A stretch of 64,000 nt of DNA from positions 3,038,001-3,102,000 of the forward strand of contig NZ_CP053439.1 of NCBI RefSeq assembly GCF_000769405.2, given 5' to 3'. Below the pieces are notes generated by a model, which ran no database searches, was not told the origin of the DNA, and worked only from the letters and a program-made list of their open reading frames with translations. Below, piece by piece: positions 20,086 through 23,502 of this stretch (positions are counted from its first letter, which is position 1; each line of letters begins with the position of its first letter). The stretch comes from Rhizobium brockwellii. GTDB lineage: Bacteria > Pseudomonadota > Alphaproteobacteria > Rhizobiales > Rhizobiaceae. The translations under genes were made by a program, and so were the position numbers.

Positions 20086-21543
20086 TTATGCAGCCTTCAG
20101 AATAAGGCGGTGAATTGTCAGCATATCTTCGCGAAATCGTGCCAGTTCCTCCGCTTTCAGCCGCTCGTCGGGAATACGCAGCAGATAGGATGGATGCACC
20201 GTCACGAAGAGCGTTCGCTGCTCGTCGATCGCGATCGCTTTCCCCCTGACATCCTGCAGCCGCTGTTTCGCATCGGTCAGCGCCGCAAGCGCCGTCGCCC
20301 CCATAGCAACCACCAGCTTCGGTTTGATCAGCGCCATCTCCAGATTGAGCCACCAGCGGCAATGCTTCACCTCGCCCATATTGGGCTTCTGATGGATGCG
20401 ACGCTTGCCACGCGGCTCATATTTGAAATGCTTGACGGCATTGGTGACGTAAAGCGTTGAGCGGTCGATGCCCGCTTCAGTGATCACTTGATCGAGAAGC
20501 CTGCCGGCGGGACCGACGAAGGGCCGCCCTGATATATCCTCCTGGTCGCCCGGTTGTTCACCGACGAACATCACCTCGGCATCGCGCGGCCCCTCCCCGA
20601 ATACGGTTTGCGTCGCCTTCGCATGAAGCGGACAGCGGGTGCAGGCGGCAGCTTCCGAGCCCAGCGCTTCCAGCGTGCCCGCCGGCGCTTCGGGTTCAGC
20701 TGGAATGCTGCGCGCGGCTTCCTGCAGGCGATCGTGAAAGGGCAACGATTGGGTCGCCTCCCGGGCGGCCATGGCCCGCACCTTGCTCTCCGCCGATGCA
20801 ATTAGCCCAGGGATGAGATCGGCTTCCGGCAGGTTCTTCCAGTATTTTTTCGGCATCTCCGCTTGCATCGCCTTCAACTTCAACCGCGCCGGATTGAAAA
20901 TGCTGGCGTAGTAAGTGCGCCAGAGGTCATCGGTAGCATCTGTGAGATTGGGTTTTTCACACGGTTCGTCGCTCATCGTCAGCCGCTCGCCGTCCCACGC
21001 GGCCGATCCCTTGGGCGTCGCGATCAGCCAGTCCATGTCGGTGAAGCGCCGTTGGAAGAAGGGCGCTGTGCGCCTGACGATATGGTGATCTGGCTCGAAC
21101 CAGGCGAGGAATTTTCGACGGCCCGCCGATACCGCATCGATCTCTTTGAAGCGGACGAAGGCCGTCATCTTATGCGCGTCGCGTCGAACGTTTTTCGCCA
21201 TCAGCCTGGCACGGGCGACGTCCTCGTCGGAAGCCACTTCAAGTAATTGCCGGTCCAGTTGTAGCCGCCAGAGCAGGCGGTAAAGCAGGGAAAAACGCGC
21301 CGGGTCAAAATGGCAGAGAACTGTCTCCGCGAGTTCGATGAAGGCGGGCGGCACCGTCATCGGCTTGCGTGCCATGACAGGCGCCGGCGGCATGGCGTCG
21401 CGTTGAAACGCAAGGTCCGCCTCCTCGCCCTTTTCGCGCCAATCGATCTCTTCCGGCAGGATGCCAGCGACTGCGAAAGCGCGCGCGGCGTCACGCCATT
21501 CGGCAAGCTCCCCGCGTCCTGCAAGCACGACCCGGCGCATCAC
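20086..21543 (-). CDS. udgX: fused DUF4130-like domain and UdgX-type uracil-DNA glycosylase
   Basis: A 485-residue two-domain protein. The N-terminal half (about 1-250) matches the DNA-metabolism domain regularly paired with a radical-SAM partner. The C-terminal half (about 285-485) is UdgX: cluster cysteines C301 and C304 (CTRC) and C395, active-site GEQPGDQE (328-335), and the diagnostic KRRIH loop (380-384), whose His links covalently to DNA at uracil sites in characterised UdgX. NAVKHFK carries His where family-4 glycosylases have Cys, also typical of UdgX. HPSYLL (450-455) closes the pocket. It overlaps the radical-SAM gene by four bases and shares its SOS-type promoter. Confidence 0.93.
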
Positions 21544-22772
21544 AGCAACGACAATTGTTCAGGTTGCGGTTCGAACATGGCGCGAAGGTCGGGGCGCTCG
21601 ATCAATCGGCGCGGCGACCAGCCTTCCGCCGAGATAAAGGACTGAACCTTCTTCATCGAAATGCCGAGCCGCGAAAGATCGTCCAACCGCAACCGGCGAA
21701 AACGTCGGGCCGAAACGATCGCTCTGACTGTCTTGGTGCCGAGACCGGGCACGCGCAACAACCGTTCACGCTCGGCCCTGTTGATATCGACGGGGAATTC
21801 CGCCCGGTTGGCGAGCGCCCAGGCAAGTTTGGGGTCGAGGCTGAGATCGAGCATGCCGCCCGCCTGGTTCGCGGTGATCTCGTCGATGCCGAAACCGTAG
21901 AATCGATAGAGCCAATCGGCCTGATAAAGCCGGTGCTCGCGCATCAGCGGCGGCTTGATCAGCGGCAGGTTTTTCGATGAATCCGGGATTGGGCTGAAAG
22001 CGGAATAATAGACGCGCTTCAGCCCGTAGCTGCTGTAGAGCCGGCCGCTGGTCGCAAGGATCGTCGCATCGTTCGCCCCATCGGCGCCGACGATCATCTG
22101 CGTGCTTTGGCCGGCCGGCACGAAACGCTGACGCTTCTTCGTCCGCAACGTCGGTTCGCCGGCGGCCTCGATCTTCAGCCTCAGATCTCCCATCGATCGC
22201 CGGATATTGGCAGGCTTCTTTTCCGGCGCGAAGCGCGTTATGCCGTGATCCGTCGGCAACTCGATATTCAGCGACAGCCTGTCGGCATGAAGCCCCGCCT
22301 CCTCGATCAGACGCGGCGACGCCTCAGGGATCGATTTCAGATGGATATAGCCCCGGAAATTATGGGTCACACGCAGTTCGCGGACGATGCGGACCATCTC
22401 TTCCATCGTGTAATCAGACGATCGAATAATACCCGAGGAAAGAAACAGGCCTTCGATATAGTTGCGGCGGTAAAATTCCAGCGTCAGCCAGATGACCTCC
22501 TCGGGCGTAAAGCGCGCCCGTTCGACATTGCTCGACGAGCGATTGACGCAATAGGCGCAGTCGTAGATGCAGAAATTGGTCAGCAGTATTTTCAAAAGCG
22601 AAATGCACCGTCCGTCCGGGGCATAGGCATGACAGATGCCGGATCCTTCGGTCGAACCGAGCCCGCCACTTGCCTGGGAATCACGTTTCACCGTGCCGCT
22701 GGAAGCGCAGGAAGCGTCATATTTCGCAGCATCGGAAAGGATGGCCAAGCGTTCTGTGAGCGATTTCTTCAT
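21540..22772 (-). CDS. putative DNA modification/repair radical SAM protein
   Basis: Radical SAM enzyme with a C-x3-C-x2-C cluster motif (FCIYDCAYCVNR) that binds the 4Fe-4S cluster, a central TIM-barrel-like body and a C-terminal helix-hairpin-helix (LLRVPGLGTKTVRAIVSARR) that suggests DNA contact. This family is almost always encoded with the DUF4130/UdgX protein that follows it here by a four-base overlap. The reaction is unknown; a role in DNA repair is inferred from the partner and the SOS box. A GTG at 22784 would add four residues but lies inside the LexA box; the ATG at 22772 gives 410 residues and may be translated from a nearly leaderless mRNA. Confidence 0.9.
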   Translation of the reverse strand: MKKSLTERLAILSDAAKYDASCASSGTVKRDSQASGGLGSTEGSGICHAYAPDGRCISLLKILLTNFCIYDCAYCVNRSSSNVERARFTPEEVIWLTLEFYRRNYIEGLFLSSGIIRSSDYTMEEMVRIVRELRVTHNFRGYIHLKSIPEASPRLIEEAGLHADRLSLNIELPTDHGITRFAPEKKPANIRRSMGDLRLKIEAAGEPTLRTKKRQRFVPAGQSTQMIVGADGANDATILATSGRLYSSYGLKRVYYSAFSPIPDSSKNLPLIKPPLMREHRLYQADWLYRFYGFGIDEITANQAGGMLDLSLDPKLAWALANRAEFPVDINRAERERLLRVPGLGTKTVRAIVSARRFRRLRLDDLSRLGISMKKVQSFISAEGWSPRRLIERPDLRAMFEPQPEQLSLL

Positions 22773-22778
22773 TAGTAT

Positions 22779-22793
22779 GTTCACTATATGTTC
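22779..22793 (-). promoter_or_regulatory. LexA (SOS) box of the radical-SAM/udgX operon
   Basis: GTTC-N7-GTTC on the plus strand (GAAC-N7-GAAC on the coding strand) is an exact match to the LexA operator of Rhizobium and other alphaproteobacteria. It lies seven bases upstream of the ATG at 22772. TTGACT, 17 bases upstream of TAGTGA on the minus strand, would place the -10 element inside the box, so LexA would block polymerase binding. Confidence 0.8.
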
Positions 22794-22915
22794 TTATATG
22801 CAAAGTCAATCACGACGGTCCGATTTCTGCCCATTTTTAAGTCGCACCACCTGATATCGGGGCGAGCCGCATTTCTTTCATGCGAATTTTCTGGAAATCG
22901 GCCTTGGCGATCTGC

Positions 22916-23025: not shown

Positions 23026-23502
23026 ATGGTTGAAAAGGTACCGATGACACAGGGTGGTTTCGTCAAGCTGCAGGAAGAGCTGCGCTGGCGTCAACAGACG
23101 GAGCGTCCCCGAATCATCGAGGCGATTGCCGAAGCCCGTGCTCATGGCGACCTTTCGGAAAATGCCGAATATCACGCCGCCAAGGAAGCCCAGAGCCACA
23201 ATGAAGGCCGCATCAGCGAGCTGGAAGACCTGACGGCGCGCGCCGAGGTCATCGACCTCACCAAGATGTCGGGCGACAAGATCAAGTTCGGCGCCAAGGT
23301 GAAGCTCATGGATGAGGACACCGACGAAGAAAAAACCTATCAAATCGTCGGCGACCAGGAAGCCGACGTCAAGGCTGGCCGCATCTCCATCTCCTCGCCG
23401 ATCGCCCGCGCGCTGATCGGCAAGGAGGTCGGCGATTCCATCGAGGTCAACGCACCGGGCGGGTCCAAGGCCTACGAGATCCTCCAGGTTTCCTGGGGCT
23501 GA
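23026..23502 (+). CDS. greA: transcription elongation factor GreA
   Basis: A 158-residue factor that enters the RNA polymerase secondary channel and stimulates cleavage of backtracked RNA. The N-terminal coiled coil carries the acidic tip in [18 protein letters not shown] (about 37-54), the catalytic pair being D and E at the tip. The C-terminal FKBP-like domain ends in [13 protein letters not shown]. The ATG at 23026 has GAGAAGGA upstream; the frame is open further 5' but would run across the leader terminator. The leader terminator suggests attenuation of greA, as known for the E. coli gene. lpcC follows after 27 bases. Confidence 0.97.

Follow-up and report, generated by a model that had tools for sequence, protein, structure and literature searches.

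The window analysed here, a 64,000-nucleotide stretch of the Rhizobium brockwellii genome, holds an operon coding for a radical-SAM protein and a UdgX fusion, and a short direct repeat stands immediately before its first gene. The question raised by this locus is whether the repeat works as an SOS box, and what such control would say about the two enzymes. A motif search located GTTCACTATATGTTC at 22779-22793, with both tetramers of the GTTC-N7-GTTC direct repeat exact and the spacing equal to 7, as had been claimed in an earlier, sequence-only reading of the locus. On the coding strand the site reads GAAC-ATATAGT-GAAC, followed by ATACTA and by the ATG (A at 22772), and the six bases separating box and ATG (22773-22778) agree, up to the counting convention, with the distance of seven bases given in that reading. 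The repeat is very probably a real LexA binding site, since nearly every examined relative with the first gene keeps a site of this kind at its start; as a whole, we explain the 15-bp direct repeat with high confidence as a functional LexA operator that controls the radical-SAM/TIGR03915-UdgX operon by the mechanism proposed below (Table 1).

Table 1. Features of the operon in window coordinates, and loci preceded by the palindrome GTCTCAN5TGAGAC.
Feature	Position or locus	Strand	Remarks
LexA operator (SOS box), predicted	22779..22793	-	exact motif; coding strand GAACATATAGTGAAC; same motif in 202/205 own-class loci
Radical-SAM gene, TIGR03916	21540..22772	-	410 aa; CX3CX2C and C-terminal helix-hairpin-helix; start ATG 22772
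TIGR03915 (DUF4130)-UdgX fusion	20086..21543	-	485 aa; start GTG 21543 or ATG 21540, overlapping the radical-SAM stop codon
-10-like hexamer TATAGT, candidate	22783..22788	-	in operator spacer; from sequence
-35-like hexamer TTGACT, candidate	22804..22809	-	15 nt from TATAGT; from sequence
greA	23026..23502	+	divergent; judged not the main target of the box; name by ORF-list reading
Palindrome upstream of radical-SAM gene	L184/L295, L268/L294, L287/L292; L308, L309, L318, L324, L325		
Palindrome upstream of HRQ1-like helicase gene	L296, L297, L305, L306, L312-L315, L317, L321-L323		
Palindrome upstream of uvrA	L293		
Palindrome upstream of recA	L310		
Palindrome upstream of rmuC-like gene	L332		

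The gene names of the sequence-only reading were borne out by profile scores. The first protein reaches 570.9 bits against the NCBIfam model TIGR03916 (rSAM_link_UDG; cut-off 343.5), which we take to correspond to COG4277, and the cysteines of its CX3CX2C motif are C68, C72, and C75. Its AlphaFold model (pLDDT 78.7) forms a radical-SAM barrel whose best-ranked listed matches are HydG/HydE and generic barrels, and no spore photoproduct lyase is present among the best 50 structural matches listed. The C-terminal helix-hairpin-helix, weakly ComEA/RuvA-like, is the part of the protein that hints at an action on DNA. In the second protein, besides TIGR03915, the UdgX part scores 352 bits against TIGR03914 (cut-off 189.95), both motif A (GEQPG) and the R-loop (KRRIH) are present, and E329, Q330, and H384, the cross-linking histidine of the R-loop, are invariant in 17 of 17 aligned fusions. 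The model of the fusion has a pTM of 0.45, and its structural matches fall almost only over residues 286-485, i.e., outside the TIGR03915 part. The nearest named proteins belong to Rhizobium leguminosarum (97-98% identity), and a gene called carB-like from reading of the ORF list lies convergent beyond the operon.

Motif counting was rejected as evidence: the window holds four copies against 1.67 expected, a number reached in 9 of 100 shuffles, and the 7.1-Mb genome, both strands included, holds 198, compared with 158 copies of the reversed motif, so that counting alone gives no significance. What carries the argument is the position of the box and its conservation, the bare motif being weak evidence. 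The genome encodes LexA (TIGR00498, 179.3 bits; cut-off 110.95), the lexA gene itself is preceded by the box GTTCCATATGTGTTC, and the same motif is found upstream of dinB, of uvrA/ssb, of a PcrA/UvrD-like helicase gene (uvrA and the helicase gene being fragments cut by the fetched stretch) and of a SRAP-like gene, named by reading of the sequence with an NCBIfam score under the cut-off. Given these copies, the motif appears to be the SOS box in use in the organism. The surroundings were inspected for 26 of the 198 places (23 loci), most of them picked because their spacers are AT-rich; no open frame starts near 5 of these, and several more have doubtful frames only.

Among relatives, the radical-SAM gene was sought independently of the box. 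In the own family it was matched in 92 of 199 genomes, and 90 loci were examined, a contig-edge fragment (G174) and a broken copy (G082) being left out; exact boxes are present in all 90, and in every locus one lies at -17 to -34, counted from the place that the start codon has in the window. At class level, where only matches over the protein-family cut-off were counted, 18 of 289 genomes qualified, the own one included, and the box was exact in 16 of the 17 others; Caulobacter vibrioides has a match to the protein family. At phylum level 53 of 299 genomes were over the cut-off and all 53 were examined, and from 591 relatives a separate scan of named genomes retained 80, the box being present in 75. 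Once nine loci had been removed from 234 as duplicates in both the first 200 nt of the gene and the 120 nt ahead of it, an exact box lay between -120 and +15 of the start in 202 of the remaining 225, related loci among them not being mutually independent. These 202 come from the 205 loci of the own class (assigned by kinship label or record title, and including L284, a MAG labelled only Proteobacteria), in which two further loci have one mismatch (L219, L233) and one, L138, from a 1.5-Mb genome, has a gene over the family cut-off and no recognised SOS motif upstream. With L138 set apart, the reversed motif was found as a control in 4 of 204 own-class loci. Poor conservation would have spoken against an SOS box, and the check proposed in the sequence-only reading thus came out in its favour. 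An alignment anchored on the box took in 89 family-level loci and omitted L098, whose box has the other orientation. The anchoring itself makes the eight fixed bases identical in 89 of 89; the spacer shows partial conservation, and the flanking bases are mostly close to random. The box, its place and its conservation are direct observations, as are lexA with the other boxed SOS genes and the protein families.

Outside the class, different operators occupy the start of the same gene. Of 20 loci, 16 have the E. coli-type CTG-N10-CAG (12 of them CTGT-N8-ACAG), three have GTCTCA-N5-TGAGAC, and one, L166, has a gene over the family cut-off with no recognised SOS motif upstream; CTG-N10-CAG occurs in just 3 of 204 own-class loci. 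Other phyla, together with Acinetobacter, were sampled by five loci from plasmid records: those of Parabacteroides, Spirosoma, Acinetobacter, and Gemmatirosa, one each, had no convincing SOS motif near the start (the Parabacteroides locus has GGA-N5-TCC 211 nt upstream), and that of Acetoanaerobium has a one-mismatch Gram-positive-type site 107 nt upstream. A box kept in nearly all relatives of the own class and swapped for another SOS operator elsewhere makes a strong comparative case for regulation, and supports the earlier assignment of the operon to the DNA-damage regulon.

The sequence-only reading had also placed the box inside the predicted -10 region. The hexamer TATAGT does lie within the box, 10 nt from the ATG; TTGACT is found at a spacing of 15 nt, outside the 16-18 nt of the promoter scan, which reported no promoter in the window, and this part of the claim stays tentative because of that spacing. 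Among the relatives, the start codon falls at most 8 nt beyond the box in 144 of 187 GAAC-oriented loci, a 144/43 split that carries the labelling flaw described below, and the commonest gap is 2 nt (80 loci). In 120 of these close-start loci box positions 5-10 form a hexamer that agrees with TATAAT at four or more of six positions; in 72 the distance from the best -10-like hexamer to the start codon is 6 nt, TTG-type words peak 16-18 nt upstream of the box, and SD-like words occur in 14 of the 144 vs. 13 of the 43 others. Such distances would put the transcription start at or beside the start codon in many loci; LexA on the box would then stand in the way of the polymerase, and the mRNA would have little or no leader. 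A near-leaderless mRNA of the radical-SAM operon is therefore a likely but unproven prediction, and in the window the 5′ leader would measure about 3-4 nt. A GTG start inside the box, already considered improbable in the sequence-only reading, finds little favour among the relatives, with an in-frame start codon in the box in just 16 of 187 GAAC-oriented loci and a variable distance from box to start. A separate arrangement, unlike the near-leaderless layout elsewhere, was seen in L178-L181 (same order, family f160), where the box GTTCATGATATGTTC lies about 90 nt upstream of the start, is oppositely oriented and is followed by similar sequence.

A minority of loci, mainly one own-family clade of 18, has the box about 12 nt further upstream, often with a CTATA-like element between box and ATG, which suggests that in those loci the spacer of the promoter is taken up by the box. 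By inspection of the tree by eye, boxes at least 28 nt from the start are confined to one clade of 18, to L107 and to the pair L118/L119. A tree program run on the family loci, labelled by start-codon distance, returned seven label changes, from which no number of shifts was drawn, some labels being wrong: a spurious upstream start had been taken in L085, L090, L105, and L111, and the start next to a close box was unrecognised in L116 and L117. In three loci (L034, L069, and L076) the start of the gene carries GAACN7GAACN7GAAC, with a third GAAC at the same spacing of 7, which spans both of the usual box positions; these loci are possible intermediates and would offer a route for operator shift.

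From this material we infer that LexA binds, that damage induces the operon and that the transcript is leaderless, and we infer the repair chemistry in all its steps. In undamaged cells LexA on the box would keep RNA polymerase off, because the box would cover the -10 region and adjoin the likely transcription start and the start codon. DNA damage would lead to RecA filaments, these to self-cleavage of LexA, and the box, once freed, would permit a leaderless or near-leaderless mRNA to be made and translated from its ATG, with the second gene coupled through the overlapping stop and start codons. UdgX would remove uracil and covalently cap the resulting abasic site, and the radical-SAM enzyme with its helix-hairpin-helix would, together with the TIGR03915 partner, process the lesion or the DNA-protein adduct. 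SOS control argues for a pair that repairs or modifies DNA, short of proving it.

The composition of the operon varies among the 225 loci. Behind the radical-SAM gene a TIGR03915-UdgX fusion is found in 186, TIGR03915 alone in 22, some of these owing to short flanks, neither in 7 and a separate or shifted partner in 2, the flank being short in the remaining 8. The boxed locus L223 (2.5 kb of flank) has TIGR03915 without UdgX behind, and the same holds for the SOS-boxed loci L192-L194, L196, L200-L204, and L285 of other classes (at least 2 kb of flank); among the seven loci with neither partner, five boxed ones (L087, L104, L105, L112, and L113) have no partner domain within 2.1-2.2 kb. These counts and the boxed loci without UdgX point to the radical-SAM protein as the constant element, to TIGR03915 as its usual partner and to UdgX as a frequent third part. 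The radical-SAM gene, present in 92 of 199 own-family genomes, is patchy and probably mobile or often lost. It was also seen on 158 records of a plasmid collection (58 of Phaeobacter; some are megabase replicons), and remnant or broken copies were noticed at G082:C1:26604-27044 and G178:C4:18962-19471.

If the repeat had arisen by chance or belonged to a constitutive promoter, the operon would not be damage-regulated; exact copies, which are common in the genome and with 198 modestly exceed the 158 of the reversed control, would fit, as would the spacer that doubles as a -10 hexamer. Nonetheless, the eight fixed bases are kept in 202 of 205 own-class loci while neighbouring bases drift, and other classes have a different SOS operator in their place; a promoter alone would not change from GAACN7GAAC to CTG-N10-CAG in step with the clade, and we regard this explanation as extremely improbable. 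The divergent greA starts 254 bp off on the other strand, and a box between divergent genes can serve two, as at uvrA/ssb in the own genome, which would allow the box to act on greA or on both genes; greA, however, is in the fetched flank of just 15 of 225 loci. The radical-SAM gene, in contrast, keeps the box, which therefore belongs to it, and a role for greA appears very improbable.

The operon could also be SOS-regulated while its proteins act on something other than genomic DNA that is produced under damage, for instance a nucleotide, an RNA, or the DNA of a phage or plasmid. We know of no substrate for the radical-SAM protein, which counts in favour of this possibility, as do the HydG/HydE/BioB-type proteins, rather than DNA enzymes, among the best-ranked listed structural matches, and the patchiness of a gene that is over the cut-off in 18 of 289 class genomes and recurs in the plasmid collection. 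On the other hand, the protein ends in the weakly ComEA/RuvA-like helix-hairpin-helix, and its partner is fused to a UdgX whose relatives excise uracil from DNA, according to PMC10359453. We find such a substrate unlikely, and prefer the LexA-controlled operon with a function in DNA repair or modification.

SOS control of a two-gene COG1573-COG4277 operon is described for Bacteroidetes, with Verrucomicrobia and Alphaproteobacteria cited (references 7 and 65 therein), and CAC3343-CAC3344 are predicted LexA targets of Clostridium acetobutylicum (PMC8565304 and PMC3828012, respectively). The regulatory link is thus not new, and the rhizobial operon is a well-supported further case of a known type of SOS-controlled operon. 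It is of the same kind as the Bacteroidetes operon, but here a single fused protein contains both TIGR03915 and UdgX, and the operator has the form of the alphaproteobacterial direct repeat, unlike the GGA-N5-TCC and CTAA-N5-TTAG motifs of Bacteroidetes; in the Clostridium case the partner is called a protein of unknown function, and the motif is one predicted for the Clostridium LexA (PMC3828012). GTTCN7GTTC is listed as the Caulobacter SOS box, after da Rocha 2008 as cited there (PMC9578287), and the alphaproteobacterial LexA operator is given for the class in PMC8565304. The rhizobial site shares with it both tetramers, the spacing of 7, the location at the start of a repair-type gene and a genome with lexA; it differs in being mostly in GAAC orientation (186 of 204 loci, with 15 in GTTC orientation only, 1 in both and 2 in neither) and usually near enough to the ATG for little or no 5′ leader. 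Compared with UdgX of Mycobacterium smegmatis (PMC10359453; PDB 6AJO, 6IOD, and 8IIE), the Rhizobium UdgX is fused behind a TIGR03915 domain.

In the literature within scope, from which most subscription journals fell out, no study of the rhizobial radical-SAM/UdgX operon was found. By word search, "radical SAM" is absent from PMC6473078, PMC12700426, PMC1839093, PMC13384398, PMC6120978, PMC4211646, PMC8072749, and PMC9578287, and "uracil" from the same papers except PMC1839093, which uses it for uracil-DNA glycosylases in general. Likewise, "SOS," "operon," and "radical SAM" are absent from the text of PMC10359453, and the words SOS and operon from the UdgX biochemistry literature examined.

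The third operator version at the TIGR03916 gene, beside GAACN7GAAC and CTG-N10-CAG, deserves separate consideration. GTCTCAN5TGAGAC is present in 41 of 60 genomes of Xanthomonas relatives (the family of G562), the reversed control in none. Thirty palindrome loci were inspected, one per genome and part of all places, with genes read by eye: downstream lie the radical-SAM gene in 5, an HRQ1-like helicase gene in 10, recA in 1, a rmuC-like gene in 1, and an unclear or other gene in 13; in further palindrome loci uvrA and two helicases were checked against Pfam. The exact palindrome is found in none of 22 lexA-family loci from 12 such genomes within 260 nt upstream of the profile match, a scan in which at least one stretch was misplaced (L339, flank cut). 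Several of these loci have TTAGTAGTAATACTA-type sites or, by eye, TGTACAAATGTACA sites, and the UmuD-like locus L353 has a one-mismatch copy of the palindrome. The SOS box or Xanthomonas is treated in PMC6237742 and PMC3108266, and TGAGAC was not found in the 10 of 19 papers listed for this palindrome. In Xanthomonas relatives the palindrome is thus a candidate operator for a damage regulon not yet described: being unlike the boxes seen at several of their own lexA genes and preceding uvrA, recA, and the HRQ1-like helicase gene, it would mark an undescribed regulator. With at least three operator versions, the radical-SAM protein and its usual TIGR03915 partner, rather than UdgX, would be the conserved damage-response function. 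We hold the chances to be evenly balanced for this wider proposal, i.e., that TIGR03916 is under damage control whatever the regulator, through at least three operators, the third of which marks an undescribed damage regulator in Xanthomonas relatives.

For the rhizobial operon, the finding fixes a physiological setting for an enzyme pair of obscure chemistry, and assays of the pair are best begun from damaged DNA and damage-induced cells. UdgX gains a setting as well, most loci (186 of 225) having it in the fusion gene directly behind the radical-SAM gene, while the palindrome of the Xanthomonas relatives could open a new damage regulon.
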